This document shows positions 2,764-21,596 of a DNA stretch of 22,481 nt, in pieces. The DNA comes from a virus. Both the position numbers and the translations under genes were made by a program. The notes under the pieces were generated by a model. It did not search any database, was not told where the DNA came from, and worked only from the letters and a program-made list of their open reading frames with translations. Numbering within the stretch: the stretch's first letter is position 1; each line of letters begins with the position of its first letter. The DNA lies in the IMG/VR virus record IMGVR_UViG_3300012147_000094, positions 1 through 22,481 of that record, one strand, 5' to 3'.

Positions 2764-3261
2764 TTAGCTTTCGTTTTCGTTTTCTCTTATGTCATGTTCC
2801 ATATCTAGTCTAGCAAACATTGCACGTTCAAAAGTATCAAAAGTGCCTAAATGGTACTTTTTCTTGAGCCACACAATCTGAGCTGACCAGCGTCCAGATT
2901 TAGTTTTCTTTACTCCTCTAAAGCCTGAGGAATTAGAAGCTGGTGTCGGCTTGTTCAAATGGTTCAAAGACCTTGTAACTTCACGCAAATTAGCCCATCT
3001 GTTGTCTGCACGTTGTCGATTTATATGGTCTATTTCTATAGGCCATTTACCAGTTACGTAAAAGAAAACTAGCCTATGGACTAGCTGTCTTTCTCCAGCT
3101 ATTGTAACTACTAAATAGCCGTTAGGCTGAACTGAGCCTATAGGCTCAGAAACGCTTTTACGTCCCCTATGCCATTTACACCAAAACAGTTTTCCAGTGG
3201 CTTTATCATAGTAAATTTCTTTCAGCAGCCACTTATGATTTATTGTGCTTTGTTGAGGCAT
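2764..3261 (-). CDS. HNH homing-type endonuclease with AP2 DNA-binding domain
   Basis: The 165-residue protein has the classic phage free-standing HNH layout. An N-terminal region (residues 10-55) leads into the HNH core with H62 (VHRLVFFYVTG), D78-H79 (IEIDHINRQ) and the asparagines of the RADNRWANLRE segment at 87-91. Residues about 112-145 (GFRGVKKTKSGRWSAQI and YHLGTF) form an AP2-like domain. Such enzymes nick or cut DNA at homing sites and spread between phages. The DNA is visibly richer in A/T than its neighbours, with many AAA/TTA codons, which suggests separate origin. It has no good ribosome site and its ATG follows the nuclease stop by 4 nt, so it may be poorly translated or coupled. 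Confidence 0.9.
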   Translation of the reverse strand: MPQQSTINHKWLLKEIYYDKATGKLFWCKWHRGRKSVSEPIGSVQPNGYLVVTIAGERQLVHRLVFFYVTGKWPIEIDHINRQRADNRWANLREVTRSLNHLNKPTPASNSSGFRGVKKTKSGRWSAQIVWLKKKYHLGTFDTFERAMFARLDMEHDIRENENES

Positions 3262-7440: not shown

Positions 7441-7460
7441 GGTTGTGTCCTGTAAATGAA

Positions 7461-7498
7461 GGCCGGGTATACAGGACAAATCCTATAAACTCCCGGCC
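7461..7498 (-). other. Long stem-loop between the acidic-protein gene and the gene at 7440
   Basis: Outer arms GGCCGGG/CCCGGCC and inner arms AGGA/TCCT with further A-T pairs build a strong 38-nt hairpin. On the minus strand TTCATTT follows, so partial termination is possible. It starts 6 nt after the stop codon (7505) of the proposed frameshifted extension of the acidic protein. Confidence 0.55.
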
Positions 7499-7504
7499 TA
7501 TTGG

Positions 7505-7609
7505 TTAGAAAGGTGGTTGCTCGTCTGGATAGACTGGCTTCCAGGGCTTAAGCGATTGGTAATACGAGCCTTTTTTACCTAGACTCGTATAACGCAGCCT
7601 TAGCCCTTT
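7505..7609 (-). promoter_or_regulatory. Probable -1 ribosomal frameshift signal and 32-codon extension
   Basis: The acidic-protein gene ends with codons TTA AAG GGC TAA, which contain the slippery heptamer A AAG GGC (7609-7603). Twelve nt later a 7-bp stem (ATACGAG/CTCGTAT, 7590-7562) with a 15-nt loop could stall the ribosome. After a -1 slip the frame stays open for 32 codons to a TAA at 7505-7507. The added tail is basic and aromatic, includes SLKPWKPVYPDEQPPF, and ends like the SSB C-terminal tip (acidic residues then PF). There is no start codon that would translate this stretch as a separate gene. The 12-nt spacer is somewhat longer than usual, so the activity is inferred only. Confidence 0.55.
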
Positions 7610-8139
7610 AAGCGCGTTACCATCTTCTCGTGAGCTTCCTGCAGGTCGTCCTTCGAGACTTCGCCCACAGCCTTGTAGCCCTTGCCGACTTCGGTCAGCA
7701 CCTCGAAAACGGCGGCCTTGCCGTCTTTTTCCATCAGGTCCCGTGCGAACCCCCGAAGCGTGTCATTGGTCAGCTTTTCGGGGAGGGCGTAGGTGTCTTC
7801 AGCAGCATCTCCATCGCCGAGCGGGTCCCCTTTGTCGCCATCTTCTCCAGCTGCTTCTGCTTCCGCCGGTTCTTCCGGCTCTCCAGCTTCCTCGGGCTCG
7901 GGTTCAGGCTCGGAAGGTGTTTCTTCCTCGACCGTCTCCGCTTCTTCGACTGCGGGGGCTTCTTCGGTGGCAGCTTCGTCGTCGTCGTCGTCGTCGGTTC
8001 CGGCATCATTGTCCTCCGGGATATTGACGCTGAAAGTTGCGTTGGTAACCGCCTCGAGAATGCCCTCAAGCGCTGTCGCCGATCGCTCCTGGGCTGAGGC
8101 AAGCCGCTCAAGCTGCTCGTCAATGGTTTTCGTCGTCAT
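7600..8139 (-). CDS. Acidic hypothetical protein, possibly extended by -1 frameshift
   Basis: The conventional product is 179 residues starting MTTKTIDEQLERLASAQERS. The N-terminal 30 residues look like a short coiled coil. Residues about 40-115 are a very acidic, low-complexity linker with a run of aspartates and many Glu/Pro/Ala repeats. The last 65 residues (LPEKLTNDTLRGFARDLMEK onward) form a compact helical domain. I use the ATG at 8139 because GAGGAG precedes it; a 12-codon upstream extension has no ribosome site. The end carries a slippery AAAGGGC and would give 211 residues after a -1 slip. The gene is divergent from the primase-helicase and heads the leftward replication operon, so a replication-accessory role is a reasonable guess. 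Family not recognised. Confidence 0.78.
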   Translation of the reverse strand: MTTKTIDEQLERLASAQERSATALEGILEAVTNATFSVNIPEDNDAGTDDDDDDEAATEEAPAVEEAETVEEETPSEPEPEPEEAGEPEEPAEAEAAGEDGDKGDPLGDGDAAEDTYALPEKLTNDTLRGFARDLMEKDGKAAVFEVLTEVGKGYKAVGEVSKDDLQEAHEKMVTRLKG

Positions 8140-8221: not shown

Positions 8222-8239
8222 CACAGGACTGGTCCTGTG
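8222..8239 (-). other. Compact hairpin in the divergent promoter region
   Basis: Perfect 7-bp arms CACAGGA/TCCTGTG enclose CCAG on the minus strand (CTGG on plus). A near-identical sequence with two extra central bases lies inside the coding region at 15576-15595. It stands between the divergent acidic-protein and primase genes, so it could be an operator or a transcript hairpin. Confidence 0.5.
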
Positions 8240-8337
8240 AAGCTAGTATAGGAAGTCTACGCGCGCAGTTTATGATGTGAAGATACCGGCGTTGTTGCCA
8301 TCGTGTATCAAAATGGTTTCCCATTAAATCCGAACAG

Positions 8338-8343
8338 TATAAT
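8338..8343 (+). promoter_or_regulatory. -10 box for the primase-helicase gene
   Basis: A perfect TATAAT lies 29 bp before the start codon. No good -35 is visible; the best candidate is TGGTTT at 19 bp. A short leader containing GGAGG would follow. Confidence 0.55.
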
Positions 8344-8371
8344 CTGGTCTAGCGGAACATGGAGGCGCGTA

Positions 8372-10717
8372 ATGGGTAAATCCAATCTCGCCCTCGCTTT
8401 GTCTTATGCCAGCAAGGGCTGGTATGTATTCCCTATCAAAAAGGGAACAACGAACAAACCGAGGGTAAAGTGGGGCTCAGACGCCACCACTTCTGAAAAG
8501 ATCATCAACGGCTGGTGGAAAGCCTGGCCAGAAGACAACATAGGCATCGCTACTGGTCCCTCCAATCTTTGTGTCCTAGACGTGGACATGAAGCATGGCA
8601 AGAACGGGCAGAAAACGCTCGACGACCTGGAGCTGGACTATGGCGAACTTCCCAATACACTTGCTGCTGTCACACCTTCTGGTGGGTTTCATCTCTATTT
8701 TGCTGGTTCGGCCCGAACTACTGTTGAACAAGTGGGTCCGGGCCTTGACACTCGTGGCTCTGGCGGCGCTGGCGGATACGTTCTGGCGCCAGGCTCTAGC
8801 ACAGATGTAGGCGAGTATGAATGGCGCGAGAGCAGCCAGATACCCGTTGCAGAAATTCCTGACTGGATTGTGCACCTCTCTGGGCGCCGCGAAGATCGTG
8901 AGCACCAACAAGAGGCGGTCGTCGACCAGGATCAGCCGCAGTATATTGATTGGGCTACCGAGCACCTCAAGCATGATGCCAAGATTGCCATTGAAGGTAA
9001 GAAGGGCAACTCAGTAACTTTCAACCTAGCATGTGTCTTGCGTGAGAAGGGTCTGTCAAGTGAAATGGCTCTAGAGCTTATGCTTGAGCACTGGAATGAT
9101 CGTTGCGTGCCCTCTTGGTCGCCAGAGGAACTTGGCAAGGTAGTTGAGAACGCTTTCAACTATGCCAGCGTTGTGCCTCCAGGTGGTGATACCCCAGAGC
9201 ATGACTTCGGGGACCCTGATACGCCAGACGATCAAGGAGAATATGGCCCGGCCCCTATAAACGGTGAGCAAGAGGAACGCTTCTCAGGTATAATGGACGA
9301 ATGGGTATGGATTGCCCAGGCCAAGATGTTCTATCGCCGTCGCGACGGTATGATGTTTGACACCAAGTCCTTTGACAGCATGTTCAACTATATGCTGGAA
9401 GGTAAGGGAAGCATTTCCAACGAAATCTTTGGAGCCAAGAGGTCTATGCGGAAGTTCGACAAGATGGACTTCTTGCCCGAGCAGCCTGAGTGCTGCGGAG
9501 AGGTGTATAACACCTGGAGACCTAGCGACCTGAAACCTGTAGAGGGCGATCCAACCATCTTCCTTGAGCACATGGACTACATGTTTGAAGACAAGCGTGA
9601 GCGTGACCTGGTGCTTGACTATATGGCCTGGTGTGTGCAGAACCCTGCAAGCAAGCCTAACTTCGCCATGGTTATCAAGGGTAAGCAAGGCACAGGTAAG
9701 TCATTTATTGGACAGGTGCTGGAACGCATCTTTGGCCCACACAATACGGGCCGGCCCATGAACGCCTCAATTCAATCGCAGTTCAACGGTTGGGCACGAA
9801 ATGTCAAGCTGGTCGTCATTGAGGAACTGATGGTCAAAGGTCGCGTGGACCTGATGAACCACCTCAAGCCAATGATTACTGATCCATTGATTGAGATCAA
9901 CGAGAAATACCAGCCTGCTCAAAAGATCACCAACAACTGTGTGATCGTGGCCTTTACCAACCACGACGACGCCTTGCCTATCGAGGACGACGATCGCCGG
10001 TATATGATTATCATCTCAGACGCCTTTCCGAAAGGACCCGCATACTACGACAAGCTATTCAAGTGGGCCGAGAAGGAAGACGGAGACGCAATCATCTGGA
10101 GTTGGCTGCTGAAGCGCGACATTGGGAAGTTCAACGGAAAAGGCCGAGCGCCGACCAGTGCATCTAAGGACGAGATGCGTGAGGCCTCCAGGACTGACTA
10201 CGACGCCAAATGGCTGCACCTCTATGACAGCAACCTACCTCCGTTCCATGGACAGTATGTCACAGAGCAGGACCTGGTTGATGCCCTACCCGAGAAGATG
10301 CAAATAAGAGGTAGCCGGGCCCATGCCCGTAAGTTCCTTAACAACTCGGTCCCTGCCTACAATACCAAGAAGCAATGCCACACCAATGCCGGACGCGTGA
10401 TCCTGTGGGCGCTGCCTGCTGGTAAGGACGTTCGTGAGAACTCCCAAGCCGCTCAGAAGGCAGTCAAGGAACGGGAAGACGGACGGGTTCCTAAGATGAA
10501 GGCCACTGTCTATAACCGCGAGATGAGCATAGAATTCCAGCAACAGGCTGAGGAGGCTGTTCTTGGTTCTGACTGGGACGATGTTCCGGTGATAAACGAC
10601 ACACATTCGGCTGTTGTGCGTCTACCTGATCGGCACCGAGGTCGTGCAGACCAGACTGACGCGTCCTGTGAAGCAGTGGAAGACTTGATAAAGCGAGACG
10701 CCGACCCACTTGAGTGA
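8372..10717 (+). CDS. Primase-polymerase / SF3 helicase fusion (NrS-1 type)
   Basis: This 781-residue protein combines an AEP primase-polymerase with a helicase. Residues 1-165 are the prim-pol domain: WYVFPIKKG, GIATG, LDVDMKHG with D70 and D72, and TPSGGFHLYF with H107. Residues about 205-265 (GNSVTFNLACVLREKGLS and following) resemble the helical domain found after prim-pol in NrS-1 polymerase. Residues about 310-600 are an SF3/D5-like ATPase with Walker A GKQGTGKS at 437-444 and VVIEEL with E484/E485 as Walker B. It should prime, and possibly polymerise, and unwind phage DNA. I start at 8372 because GGAGG lies 6 nt upstream; the longer frame upstream has no ribosome site. It is the only rightward gene in the left half and has its own promoter and terminator. 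Confidence 0.92.
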   Translation: MGKSNLALALSYASKGWYVFPIKKGTTNKPRVKWGSDATTSEKIINGWWKAWPEDNIGIATGPSNLCVLDVDMKHGKNGQKTLDDLELDYGELPNTLAAVTPSGGFHLYFAGSARTTVEQVGPGLDTRGSGGAGGYVLAPGSSTDVGEYEWRESSQIPVAEIPDWIVHLSGRREDREHQQEAVVDQDQPQYIDWATEHLKHDAKIAIEGKKGNSVTFNLACVLREKGLSSEMALELMLEHWNDRCVPSWSPEELGKVVENAFNYASVVPPGGDTPEHDFGDPDTPDDQGEYGPAPINGEQEERFSGIMDEWVWIAQAKMFYRRRDGMMFDTKSFDSMFNYMLEGKGSISNEIFGAKRSMRKFDKMDFLPEQPECCGEVYNTWRPSDLKPVEGDPTIFLEHMDYMFEDKRERDLVLDYMAWCVQNPASKPNFAMVIKGKQGTGKSFIGQVLERIFGPHNTGRPMNASIQSQFNGWARNVKLVVIEELMVKGRVDLMNHLKPMITDPLIEINEKYQPAQKITNNCVIVAFTNHDDALPIEDDDRRYMIIISDAFPKGPAYYDKLFKWAEKEDGDAIIWSWLLKRDIGKFNGKGRAPTSASKDEMREASRTDYDAKWLHLYDSNLPPFHGQYVTEQDLVDALPEKMQIRGSRAHARKFLNNSVPAYNTKKQCHTNAGRVILWALPAGKDVRENSQAAQKAVKEREDGRVPKMKATVYNREMSIEFQQQAEEAVLGSDWDDVPVINDTHSAVVRLPDRHRGRADQTDASCEAVEDLIKRDADPLE

Positions 10718-11777: not shown

Positions 11778-12071
11778 ATCAATCCCTCCCGATCCGGTGA
11801 TACTGGAAGTCGACTTCATGGTCCACACTCCACACTCCACACTCCACACTCCACACTCCACGCCGTCTGCGTCTGCGACCGCGAGAAGGGTGTCTGCCTC
11901 GCGAGACATGAAGTCGTCGCCATTGAAGTCGTAACCAAGTTCACCCAGGATGGTGACGAACCGGGCTGCGTCTCGCTGGTCGTAGAATTCCGCATCCTTC
12001 AGGATTTGACCCCAGAGGAGTTCGGCCACTTGGCGCGTCATGGTGAACGGTGTTATGGACGTGAGTGTCAT
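11616..12071 (-). CDS. Hypothetical protein, 151 aa; probable repeat-driven fusion of two genes
   Basis: The frame starts at an ATG with AAGGAG upstream (MTLTSITPFTMTRQVAELLW). The first about 70 residues are one compact domain. A 39-bp run of the 7-bp unit CCACACT then encodes VECGVWSVECGVW. The last 53 residues (MNRSATADRDTRLALFRCQL onward) have their own ATG at 11777 and a strong GGGAGGG site, as expected for a separate gene. In one alternative frame after the repeat the sequence reads HEVDFQYHRIGRD and stops one base before that ATG, the usual spacing of adjacent phage genes. So the present single frame probably arose by gain or loss of repeat units. Promoter P2 drives the unit. Functions unknown. 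Confidence 0.68.
   Translation of the reverse strand: MTLTSITPFTMTRQVAELLWGQILKDAEFYDQRDAARFVTILGELGYDFNGDDFMSREADTLLAVADADGVECGVWSVECGVWTMKSTSSITGSGGIDMNRSATADRDTRLALFRCQLMAYGRMTHDASSRAEWKALQLEYDNLRKEETNA
11823..11861. repeat. 7-bp tandem repeat (CCACACT, 5.6 copies)
   Basis: Five perfect units plus four bases lie within the coding frame of the gene at 11616-12071. Because 7 is not a multiple of 3, each gain or loss changes the reading frame downstream. Confidence 0.95.
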
Positions 12072-12849: not shown

Positions 12850-13638
12850 TCATGTGTGGGCCAGGGCTTTAGCTCCCTGAGATACTCCACGGCCCAGAGA
12901 CACGTTCTGTCCATCGTGCACGCCCGCTTGAGCGGCTGCATTGTTCTTCACCGAGGTGCCCTTTGAGGAGTCAGTGCTGAGGCCAGGGGCAATGGTGTTA
13001 AGGAAGTCCTGGACGATCCTGGCCTTTTCGATCAGCACCAGCTCCATCCCTGAGGTGCTCTTGGCCTGCTCTCGCACAGTGTCAAGGGACTGACGCAGCG
13101 CATGGAGCTTGGCGTTCACCGCGGAGGCAAAGCCCACCAGGTAGGAGTTCCGTTCAGCCGTCACAGAAATACCCCGGGCCCCTTTGGTGGCTTCAGCGAG
13201 GACATGGCTGAACAACCAGGTTGCTTGGTCGACGTCGCTCCTGTATCCAGCGAAGAACACTACCTTCCGATCTGAGCGCTTGCCAGTCGGCGTCGGCAGG
13301 ACTTTATACCAGCCCTGGGTTCCGGTAAGTTCCTCGATAGGGCTCATGACGAACTGGGTTACAATCCAGTCAAAGCGGGTTATGACCGTTTCGGATTGGA
13401 ACATATCCGGGTCCTTCGCACGGACCTCATCTTCGGTGAGGCCAAGCGAGTGCAGCATCTTGGCTGCTTTGGCCTGGCGGGACTTGGCTTCAGCCTCAGT
13501 GCAGCCAGCGTCGTCCAGCAAGGTGGCAATTGTCTTCTTCAGGTCATCAGTATCACGTTTGTTGGACGAGTTAATATCACGTCCGTTGGACGAGTTAATA
13601 TCACGTCCGTTGGACGAGTTAATCTTGCGGGTCATCAC
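12850..13638 (-). CDS. DUF2786-like protein with N-terminal tandem repeat
   Basis: The 262-residue product begins with three copies of an 8-residue repeat (INSSNGRD, last copy INSSNKRD). A domain of DUF2786 type follows at about residues 30-75 (LKKTIATLLDDAGCTEAEAK, AAKMLHSLGLTEDEV). A central domain carries KVVFFAGYRSDVDQATWLF and YLVGFASAVNAKLHALRQ, as in the region usually following DUF2786 in phage and plasmid proteins. The biochemical role of this family is unknown. The ATG at 13638 overlaps the previous stop and has a GGAGAG site. Next to the non-coding origin-like block, it is a candidate DNA-associated protein. Confidence 0.75.
   Translation of the reverse strand: MMTRKINSSNGRDINSSNGRDINSSNKRDTDDLKKTIATLLDDAGCTEAEAKSRQAKAAKMLHSLGLTEDEVRAKDPDMFQSETVITRFDWIVTQFVMSPIEELTGTQGWYKVLPTPTGKRSDRKVVFFAGYRSDVDQATWLFSHVLAEATKGARGISVTAERNSYLVGFASAVNAKLHALRQSLDTVREQAKSTSGMELVLIEKARIVQDFLNTIAPGLSTDSSKGTSVKNNAAAQAGVHDGQNVSLGRGVSQGAKALAHT
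13555..13626. repeat. 24-bp tandem repeat in coding sequence, 3 copies
   Basis: The unit beginning GTTGGACGAGTTAATATCAC occurs identically at 13561 and 13585 and in truncated form at 13609; a degenerate copy precedes 13561. Near identity at the DNA level points to recent slippage duplication. The length keeps the frame. Confidence 0.9.
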
Positions 13639-18725: not shown

Positions 18726-18966
18726 CGCCAGCAAAGTTGTGACCTTTCAAAAGCCGGAAGATCGCGATGCAAAAGCATACAAAGAGTATATGCTGGAAAT
18801 TCTTGATGAGGCTCGTGCTAAAATTGAAGCGGATGAAGTGCATAGTTTTGCCTTTGCAATGGAATTGAAAGACTTTGGGGTATACACCGACTTTACCGGG
18901 GGCTTTAACCCAGTTCTTATTGGAGCTGCTAGTCAACTGCTACATCGGCTGAACGAGGTAGACTGA
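18709..18966 (+). CDS. Small hypothetical protein between terminase genes, 85 aa
   Basis: There is no ATG near the start; the TTG at 18709 has GAGGAG 7 nt upstream, inside the end of the small terminase gene (17-bp overlap). The product is helical (DRDAKAYKEYMLEILDEARA, KIEADEVHSFAFAMELKD) and ends FNPVLIGAASQLLHRLNEVD. Its TGA overlaps the large terminase ATG as TGATG, so the two are likely coupled. Family unknown; a packaging or head accessory is possible. Confidence 0.72.
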   Translation: MTHLPDASKVVTFQKPEDRDAKAYKEYMLEILDEARAKIEADEVHSFAFAMELKDFGVYTDFTGGFNPVLIGAASQLLHRLNEVD

Positions 18967-21596
18967 TGAGTGTTCATGGTGGAGGCCAAGCGGAGTTCCA
19001 GCCTGGGTCACAGCGCATTGAATGGCGCAAGACCGACGACGGGCTGAAGGCGTTTGTCATCAAACCTAATGGCCGGCAGGAAGCAGTGGTCTGGGCACCT
19101 CAGCCTGGAAGCCAGGAAGCATTCCTCAGTTGCCCCATTACGGAAGTCCTTTACGAGGGCACACGCGGCCCGGGTAAGTCCCAGCCACTAGATACCATTG
19201 TCTATACTCCTACGGGCCCGCGACAAATTGGGGCCTTGGTTGTAGGAGACTTGGTTTCTGGCAGTGATGGAAAGCCGGTACGGGTTACCGGGGTCTACCC
19301 GCAGGGTCGTAAGGCGCTTTGCCGTCTGGTGTTCAAAGACGGGACAAGCACGCTCGCGAGTCCGGATCACCTTTGGCAGACAGCGGCAACTGGGCCAGGG
19401 GCCCGCTGGAACAAGCGCGTGCTGCGGACGCACGAAATGAAAGAGTGGATGGCTAAAGGCAAAGCCCTCTCTGTTCCGTTTATGTCAGGGCCTTGGGAAT
19501 GCAAGCCAGCGGACCTGCCAATTGACCCGTATCTCATGGGCATGTTCCTCGGTGACGGCTGTTATCAAAAGTATTCTGTTGCCATAACCACAACGGACCA
19601 AGAGACTATAGACTGGCTGCTAGGCCTTGGTTTCAAGTTCAAAGCGCCAATATCGTATAGAGCGCCGGGAACGCAGATGGCACATGCACTCCGGACGCTT
19701 GGTTTGGAAAACAAGACGTCGGCCCACAAGTTTGTTCCGCACTGCTATCTACAAGCCTCGGTCGACCAGCGATTGGCCCTGTTACAGGGGCTCATGGATA
19801 GCGATGGGTCTGCAAAAGCCGAGAAGAACCGTCTTCGCTTTGGCTCGATTTCCGAAGCCCTTGCCAAACAGGTGGCATGGCTACTTCGTAGTTTAGGTGG
19901 CCAAGCAACAGTCTTCAAAATTCAAAGGCCCACAGAAGACCGGCTAGAATTTGAGGTAACGGGCTATCTGCCAGATATGAAGTTCGCGTTCAGGCTGACA
20001 CGTAAGAGGGCTAAGGTTAAAACTAGAGAATTTAATAATCCGAGTAGCCGGGTAAAGAAGTATGTGTCTTATATAGAGGAAGTTGAACCACAAGAACAGG
20101 TCTGCATATCAGTGGAAGCTGACGACCACCTCTATCTTACTGACGATTTCATAGTGACCCACAACACAGACGCCCTGATTATGGATTTCTGCCAGGACGT
20201 CGGCAAAGGCTGGGGCGAAGAATGGCGTGGCATCATCTTCCGCAAAAGCTATCCTGATTTGCAGGACGTTATTGAGAAGTCCCGCAAATGGATCCCGCGT
20301 ATCTGGCCAGGTGCCAAGTATAACGAGACCAAGTCATTCTGGGAATGGCCAACTGGTGAGAAGCTCTACTTCCGCCAGTTCGCCAAGCCTGCTGACTATT
20401 ACAAATACCACGGCCACGCATATCCCTTCATTGCTTGGGAAGAACTTACAACTTGGCCCGACGATAAGTGCTTCAAGTCCATGTTCTCTTGCTTGCGTTC
20501 CACGAAAGTGGGTATGCCCCGCAAAGTCCGCGCCACGACCAACCCTTATGGTGTCGGGCACAACTGGGTGAAGATGCGCTATCGTCTTCCAGTTAAGAAG
20601 GGGAATATCATTGGGCAAATCATCACCGACGCACGCGACGACGCAGGAGAGCTTGAAGCTCCACGGGTCGCCATTCACGGCTACCTTGACGAGAACAAAG
20701 TCCTGCTCCATGCCGACCCGCACTACAAGCGCAATATTCGCACTGCTGCGCGCAATCCTGCAGAACTTGCTGCTTGGCTCGATGGCTCCTGGGACATTGT
20801 CGCGGGTGGTATGTTCGACGACATTTGGTTCATGGGCAAGGACTACATCGTGCTTGAGCCCTTTCCAATCCCGGCAAGTTGGCGTATCGATCGCAGCTTT
20901 GACTGGGGTTCGAATGCTCCGTTCTCCGTTGGCTGGTGGGCCGAAAGCGATGGCTCCGATTATACGGATGCCTTCGGTCACCGACGCTCAACAGTTCGTG
21001 GAGACCTATTCCGCATTGCTGAATGGTATGGGTGGACAGGAAAGCCAAACGAAGGCTCTCGTCTCTTGGCATGGGAAATCTCCAAGGGTATCATCGAGTT
21101 TGAGCTTGAGATGGGATGGCGCAACAAAACCAACCGTCGCTGGTCACGGGTAAAGCCGGGTCCTGCAGACAACGCTATCTTCGACGACGAGATGGGCCGC
21201 AAGAAGGATGATCCTAGCGCGAAGTCCAAAGCCACTGATATGGGTCAGCCTGTTCGCATCGACGGCCAGCTCTATCATGGCGTGCAGTGGGAATACTCCG
21301 ACAAGTCACCGGGCTCGCGCAAGCAAGGCTGGGAGCAAATGCGCTCTATGATGAAGTCAGCCATCCCGCCTGAGAAGCGCACTCCTCCAGAAGAGGGCTT
21401 GCGTGAAAAGCCCGGTCTGTTCATCTTTGAAACGTGCGAGCAGTTCCAACGAACCGTGCCCGCTCTTCCTCGTGACGAGGATGATATGGACGATGTAGAC
21501 ACCAACGCTGAAGACCACATCGGTGACGAATGCAGGTATCGTGTCCGCTTTAAGCGGCGTAATGTCAAGTCCGGAAGCACCACTGGTCATCATTAA
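18966..21596 (+). CDS. terL: Terminase large subunit, interrupted by an intein
   Basis: The 876-residue precursor holds a 328-residue intein; the spliced protein would be 548 residues, a normal size. The Walker A loop (GTRGPGKS, K71) is split right after S72, and T401 resumes it. Walker B is FIAWEE (E492/E493), the coupling motif is ATTNPYG (524-527), and the RNase H-like nuclease has D642/D646 (DRSFDWG), the GPADNAIFDDE segment (D735) and late acidic residues (D850, D854). The enzyme pumps DNA into the prohead with ATP and cuts the concatemer. Because the intein splits the ATP-binding loop, the precursor should be inactive until splicing. TGATG couples it to the preceding gene. Confidence 0.95.
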   Translation: MSVHGGGQAEFQPGSQRIEWRKTDDGLKAFVIKPNGRQEAVVWAPQPGSQEAFLSCPITEVLYEGTRGPGKSQPLDTIVYTPTGPRQIGALVVGDLVSGSDGKPVRVTGVYPQGRKALCRLVFKDGTSTLASPDHLWQTAATGPGARWNKRVLRTHEMKEWMAKGKALSVPFMSGPWECKPADLPIDPYLMGMFLGDGCYQKYSVAITTTDQETIDWLLGLGFKFKAPISYRAPGTQMAHALRTLGLENKTSAHKFVPHCYLQASVDQRLALLQGLMDSDGSAKAEKNRLRFGSISEALAKQVAWLLRSLGGQATVFKIQRPTEDRLEFEVTGYLPDMKFAFRLTRKRAKVKTREFNNPSSRVKKYVSYIEEVEPQEQVCISVEADDHLYLTDDFIVTHNTDALIMDFCQDVGKGWGEEWRGIIFRKSYPDLQDVIEKSRKWIPRIWPGAKYNETKSFWEWPTGEKLYFRQFAKPADYYKYHGHAYPFIAWEELTTWPDDKCFKSMFSCLRSTKVGMPRKVRATTNPYGVGHNWVKMRYRLPVKKGNIIGQIITDARDDAGELEAPRVAIHGYLDENKVLLHADPHYKRNIRTAARNPAELAAWLDGSWDIVAGGMFDDIWFMGKDYIVLEPFPIPASWRIDRSFDWGSNAPFSVGWWAESDGSDYTDAFGHRRSTVRGDLFRIAEWYGWTGKPNEGSRLLAWEISKGIIEFELEMGWRNKTNRRWSRVKPGPADNAIFDDEMGRKKDDPSAKSKATDMGQPVRIDGQLYHGVQWEYSDKSPGSRKQGWEQMRSMMKSAIPPEKRTPPEEGLREKPGLFIFETCEQFQRTVPALPRDEDDMDDVDTNAEDHIGDECRYRVRFKRRNVKSGSTTGHH
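19182..20165 (+). mobile_element. Intein with LAGLIDADG homing endonuclease, class 3 type
   Basis: Residues 73-400 of the precursor form the intein. Block A is QPLDTIVYTPTGPRQIG, with Gln rather than Cys or Ser at position 1. Block B is TLASPDHLWQT with H135 and W137. Block F is EQVCISVEADDHLYL with C380. The end is H399-N400 followed by T401. Trp in block B, Cys in block F and Thr after the junction are the WCT triplet of class 3 inteins, which replace the missing first nucleophile with the block F Cys. Two LAGLIDADG motifs lie at 187-199 (PYLMGMFLGDG) and 272-282 (LLQGLMDSDGS), so the homing endonuclease seems intact. Insertion in Walker A of a terminase is a known intein site. Confidence 0.9.

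Follow-up and report, generated by a model that had tools for sequence, protein, structure and literature searches.

In a clade of phages that includes Roseobacter phage RDJL3, a −1 frameshift at or near the stop codon of a gene for an acidic protein probably yields a minority fusion product with a DUF3268 half-domain, as judged from comparison of the related loci. On this reading, a fraction of the ribosomes arriving at the 3' end of the acidic gene would slip backwards by one base, at the stop codon or close to it. Those that slipped would continue into the half-domain, and a minority of the acidic protein would thereby carry it at its C-terminus. The half-domain is encoded by a conserved sequence that has no shared start codon and keeps a constant −1 register relative to the complete gene ahead of it (five lineages, all of them relatives of the window), and for such an arrangement a −1 frameshift is the simplest explanation. 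The occurrence of the frameshift, how efficient it is and any part in the replication/recombination module are inferences. The window is the whole stretch of DNA that was analysed, namely the 22,481 nucleotides of IMG/VR virus record IMGVR_UViG_3300012147_000094. It carries the acidic gene, whereas DUF3268 sequence was absent from it in a profile search.

Besides the window, the acidic protein was found in RDJL3 (L001) and in the IMG/VR contigs L003, L004, L005, L006, L039, and L040, of which L006 is a contig-edge fragment. With the close pair L001 and L003 taken as one, these make seven lineages (L001 with L003, L004, L005, L006, L040, L039, and the window). A scan of genome contigs with the C-terminal domain returned no further members. 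Scanning viral and genome contigs by alignment of the whole protein gave nothing either, as the patterns lay in low-complexity parts. The acidic protein has no family match in a Pfam search. Structure prediction, at low overall confidence, places an N-terminal helix at residues 6-33, followed by a disordered Asp/Glu/Pro linker, and residues 125-178 are predicted to form a conserved C-terminal helical domain. In L006 an in-frame TAG (contig positions 8-10) stands in the acidic gene where the relatives have AAG. It lies at most 10 bases from the contig end and is probably a contig-end error.

The half-domain is present behind the acidic gene in five of the seven lineages and absent in the window and in L039. 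In L001, L003, L004, L005, L006, and L040, the −1 frame opens within the acidic gene, crosses the stop codon (TAA or TGA) and continues into the conserved sequence LxxxELxELRxKAHxSFDRxWKxxxMxRxxAYxWL...HMSxM...GRTxxxDDF. The products match positions 56-119 of the 121 positions of the Pfam profile PF11672 (DUF3268), with E-values of 4e-14 (L001), 1e-13 (L004), 8e-15 (L005), 3e-13 (L006), and 4e-15 (L040). Their scores of 50.5-56.6 bits compare with a gathering score of 28.4. The match begins within a few codons of the acidic-gene stop, and the N-terminal zinc-finger half of the family is absent from the −1 products. A structure search with the half-domain gave no confident match, the best being a weak XRE-type helix-turn-helix with an E-value over 1. 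No Rfam element, including the published DUF3268 RNA motif (k-junction), was found in the window or in 12 related loci, and no tRNA was found in the gap behind the acidic gene. The first-pass annotation of the window had proposed that a −1 frameshift appends a C-terminal part to the acidic protein. This is borne out insofar as five lineages keep a start-less coding region in that very frame, but the part appended there would be a DUF3268 half-domain.

Where translation of this region begins was considered next to the distribution of start codons. In L001, L003, L004, and L006, the −1 frame contains no ATG, GTG, or TTG from its upstream stop to an ATG located 74-80 nt past the stop of the acidic gene. 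L001, L004, and L006 also lack ATT, ATC, ATA, and CTG in this frame before +41. L005 has a CTG overlapping the stop and a TTG at +26, and L040 has a GTG at −31 and a CTG at the stop. In these two, unusual initiation may occur at the CTG, TTG, or GTG candidates. The RDJL3 protein UFK26618 (L001 5713-5907) is annotated from the first ATG, as it would be if the DUF3268 polypeptide began there and nothing upstream were translated in the −1 frame, and purine-rich, Shine-Dalgarno-like stretches were seen by eye ahead of the ATG. This start is nevertheless very improbable, as the codons upstream of it evolve as coding sequence. Across five lineages, 10 of the 19 residues encoded before the ATG are invariant, compared with a mean of 3.05 in column shuffles, and 65 codon differences are synonymous where 23 were expected. 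None of the 5000 shuffles that served as the null was as extreme in either respect. Third-position differences number 103, against 47 and 45, and the other two frames over the same codons show no such coding pattern in the five lineages. Moreover, the 8 differences between L001 and L003 over the whole −1 open reading frame (ORF) are all synonymous (8/8), which would be the case for 24% of random changes. To go by these substitution patterns, the pre-ATG codons are under purifying selection. A cut at the ATG would also remove residues 3-22, which form helix 1 of the helical domain in the predicted model (mean pLDDT 78), together with about half of the DUF3268 score, which drops from 53 to 30 bits in L001, from 52 to 20 in L004, and from 57 to 25 in L040. 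The Met itself is invariant also in relatives that start further upstream, and its conservation therefore does not mark a start. Because the pre-ATG codons evolve as coding, carry part of the family score and form helix 1 in the model, UFK26618 is probably truncated at its N-terminus.

The main rival to a frameshift is initiation coupled to termination, at a non-standard codon that overlaps the stop or lies close to it. The −1 frame would then encode a separate small protein, and no fusion would be made. Such a protein has precedents, in that the half-domain is encoded by ordinary stand-alone genes in L011, L017, L018, L045, L046, and RDJL Phi 1 (gp39). The closeness of the −1-frame homology to the stop and the CTG at the stop in L005 and L040 also suit this mechanism. 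However, L001, L003, L004, L006, and L039 have CTA or TTA at the stop, neither of which is a known start codon, and there the case for coupled initiation is weakest. The lack of any near-cognate codon before +41 in L001, L004, and L006 counts against it as well, as does the absence from every lineage of a GGC to GGA substitution adjoining TGA, one base change that would create an ATG. Coupled initiation was therefore judged rather unlikely as the source of the −1-frame product.

For the frameshift, the preferred reading, the position of the slip can be narrowed down. In L040 the −1 frame is open for just 58 nt before the stop, so the shift would have to fall within these last 58 nt; an upstream slip at a G GTT TTC-like site was considered and is ruled out for L040 by the same stretch. 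Synonymous divergence in the 0 frame is about 0.4-0.5 across the last 57 codons and does not dip at the end, which suggests that no long stretch is dual-coded and that the shift probably occurs close to the stop. The two codons before the stop are AAG GGC in the window, L001, L003, and L005, CGC GGT in L004, AAA GGC in L006, CGC GGC in L039, and CAG GGC in L040. The context A AAG GGC occurs in the window only and G AAG GGC in L001, L003, and L005, while the remaining contexts are C AAA GGC, G CGC GGT/GGC, and T CAG GGC. In bacteria, −1 shifting at a low level has been described at A_AAG (PMC5009743). No slippery heptamer is common to the lineages, and the sites at the gene end are poor in L004, L006, L039, and L040. 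As the heptamer is not conserved, we do not propose a programmed shift of the classic heptamer type. There is no conserved stimulatory structure either, since the hairpins after the stop in L001, L039, and the window are not homologous; the downstream hairpins of L005 (z −0.8) and L040 (z 0.1) are weak. The first-pass annotation had named joint conservation of heptamer, stem and tail in homologues as a check. These are not conserved together, and the heptamer is lost in homologues with an intact first frame, yet the −1 frame is retained there, in five lineages. Codon-to-codon bypassing over the stop was also looked at by eye, and GGC to GGC over 5 nt fits L001 only. The base after the stop is C in five of the seven lineages, and a C in this position makes for a weak termination context. 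A broader proposal, which at present seems doubtful, is that −1 recoding takes place close to the stop without a classic heptamer, perhaps from slow termination at GGY-stop-C, and that the region after the stop is a slot for exchanged domains, including the 32-residue tail of the window.

In the window, the acidic gene ends with CGC TTA AAG GGC TAA on the minus strand (TTA AAG GGC TAA at 7600-7611), and the features at this end are collected in Table 1. Three of them had been singled out from the window alone: the heptamer in X XXY YYZ register directly before the stop, a stem of 7 bp 12 nt downstream, and an open stretch of 32 further codons in the −1 frame, without a start of its own and ending in YPDEQPPF. 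All three are present on the minus strand, with the stem extended to about 10 bp. The open −1 frame spans 7762 to 7505, and its extension LRLRYTSLGKKGSYYQSLKPWKPVYPDEQPPF contains no ATG, GTG, or TTG.

Table 1. Features at the 3' end of the acidic-protein gene, in window coordinates.
Feature	Position	Strand	Remark
Acidic protein gene, 179 aa, ending RLKG TAA	7600-8139	−	also conserved in relatives
TAA stop, 0 frame	7600-7602	−	
Heptamer A AAG GGC, candidate −1 slip site, abutting the stop	7603-7609	−	only in the window lineage
−1 extension, 32 codons (LRLRYTSLGKKGSYYQSLKPWKPVYPDEQPPF) plus stop	7505-7603	−	no family match
Hairpin about 12 nt past the stop	7560-7590	−	not homologous to the relatives' hairpins
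Hairpin GGCCGGGAG...CCCGGCC after the extension	7462-7500	−	

The hairpin after the stop exceeds chance, while the heptamer, the open frame and the PF ending do not. The 45 nt following the stop have a minimum free energy of −14.3 kcal/mol, compared with −6.6 for shuffled sequences (z −3.6). An X XXY YYZ heptamer falls within the last five codons of 1 of 147 window ORFs, where two to three were estimated by chance. Extensions of at least 32 codons in the −1 frame are found in 72 of these 147 ORFs (50 aa or more), and 6 of the 1055 stop-to-stop segments of the window end in PF. The open frame and its ending are thus unremarkable when taken alone.

From this ending, it had been proposed that a −1 frameshift in the window adds a docking tail like the tip of single-stranded DNA-binding protein (SSB). 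The perfect A AAG GGC, the strong and suitably spaced hairpin and the ending DEQPPF favor the idea, as do the relatives, which indicate recoding at that place. Similar to the C-terminal tip of bacterial SSB, the tail ends in acidic residues and then Pro-Phe. However, the acidic protein has no SSB (OB-fold) domain, and the tail is not conserved. The SSB tip motif has Ile or Leu before Pro-Phe, at which position the window tail has proline. The phage also encodes a separate SSB of the Enc34 type (PF10991), which ends in DDPTA, and an open frame of 32 codons is ordinary among its ORFs. In the relatives the C-terminal part is a different one, the DUF3268 half-domain. Homology searches, tblastn among them, returned no meaningful homologue of the tail except in the near-identical sister contig L026, and the tail has no Pfam match. 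A tblastn match at E 0.9 to a phage-collection protein, which presumably resembles the N-terminus of PheS, was taken as chance. The SSB-tip reading, which draws on six residues, was set aside for want of conservation and of a homologue. On this evidence, a frameshift in the window is possible, an SSB-tip function of its tail is unlikely, and a docking tail made by frameshifting there is hardly credible.

The sister contig differs from the window by 1 mismatch in 1500 aligned bases, which lies outside the tail, and the tail is unchanged. Since L026 carries the identical tail, the tail is not an assembly slip; being near-identical, L026 offers no test of selection on it. Elsewhere in the window, a minus-strand gene at 2764-3261 appears by eye to encode a homing-type endonuclease of the HNH kind whose C-terminus is AP2-like. 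This gene is absent from L026, in which its neighbors are 1 base apart (791-1099 and 1101-2480).

For the window, it seems fairly likely that the slot behind the acidic gene holds decayed DNA after loss of the domain, and that the extension is either not made or functionless. L039 lost the domain independently and retains only LTPPELAEL of it before diverging. The window tail has no detectable selection or homology, and the approximately 100 nt in the domain slot have no homologue in the relatives or in known families. Behind the acidic gene, the match between the window and L006 is limited to the terminal GGCCGGG hairpin region and the sequence downstream. On the other hand, the slip site and hairpin of the window look better than those of the relatives, not worse. 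This decay would concern the window only and is compatible with frameshifting in the clade. To judge from the alignments, the window lineage has lost the domain and had it replaced by an unrelated stretch of 32 codons behind a good-looking slip site.

The GGCCGGGAG...CCCGGCC hairpin of the window occupies the site of a GGCCGGGA...TCCCGGCC hairpin in the relatives, and the latter contains the stop of the DUF3268 frame. A palindrome, CACAGGACCAGTCCTGTG, stands in the divergent intergenic region ahead of the acidic gene (window ~8222-8240), and partial copies of it, TATAGGATTTGTCCTGTATA and ACAGGACAC, are found before the next gene (~7467-7485 and 7450-7460). Before the same downstream gene, L003 has a different palindrome, TAGAACACAGTTCTA. 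All of these are possibly operator sites.

In RDJL3 the acidic gene is followed by genes annotated as exonuclease, DNA ligase and Cas4-like, and the window has matching genes. The RDJL3 gene annotated as an integrase (UFK26616, L001 2513-4849) is the positional counterpart of a primase/helicase-like gene in L003 (2528-4891) and the window (8303-10717), and on the basis of gene position the integrase label looks wrong. Further features of the window include a terminase large subunit ORF on the plus strand (18966-21596) with an apparent intein in Walker A, seen by eye (GPGK/SQPLDTIVYTPTG ... FIVTHN/TDALI, with slashes at the junctions). Short in-frame tandem repeats occur at ~11816-11934 and ~13560-13638, with VECGVWSVECGVW in one ORF and INSSNxRD three times at the N-terminus of another.

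If the frameshift reading of the clade is right, C-terminal domain extension by frameshifting, well known for capsid and tail genes of phages, would also occur in a gene of the replication/recombination module. DUF3268 would gain an arrangement, a half-domain joined to an acidic-linker protein, that is useful for finding its function, and the truncated RDJL3 annotation would be corrected. Homologues in described phages include the DUF3268 proteins RcTitan gp32 and RDJL Phi 1 gp39, whose C-terminal half is homologous to the −1 products, and the RcTitan gene sits between the genes for SSB and a Cas4-type exonuclease. Both are ordinary genes with their own start, whereas the clade described here has neither the start nor the zinc-binding half. 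In mechanism, the closest parallel is found in the out-of-frame C-terminal Ig-like domains of tailed phages, which are made by −1 or +1 frameshifting, for example in phage T3 gene 10 (PMC5009743). The review suggests that these domains landed out of frame by chance and that selection for frameshifting followed (PMC5009743). Both cases share an out-of-frame C-terminal domain that follows an intact gene and is presumably expressed as an extension on a minority of the protein. However, the carriers of Ig-like domains are mainly capsid and tail proteins, whereas the acidic protein is encoded beside replication/recombination genes, and its proposed extension, for which the frameshift is deduced from sequence, is half of DUF3268 instead of an Ig-like domain. 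The Lambda-type tail chaperone frameshift that produces gpG and gpGT (PMC5009743) differs in the genes involved, and the clade has no conserved slippery heptamer. If gpG/gpGT is taken as a model, the minority fusion could serve as an adaptor in a replication/recombination complex.
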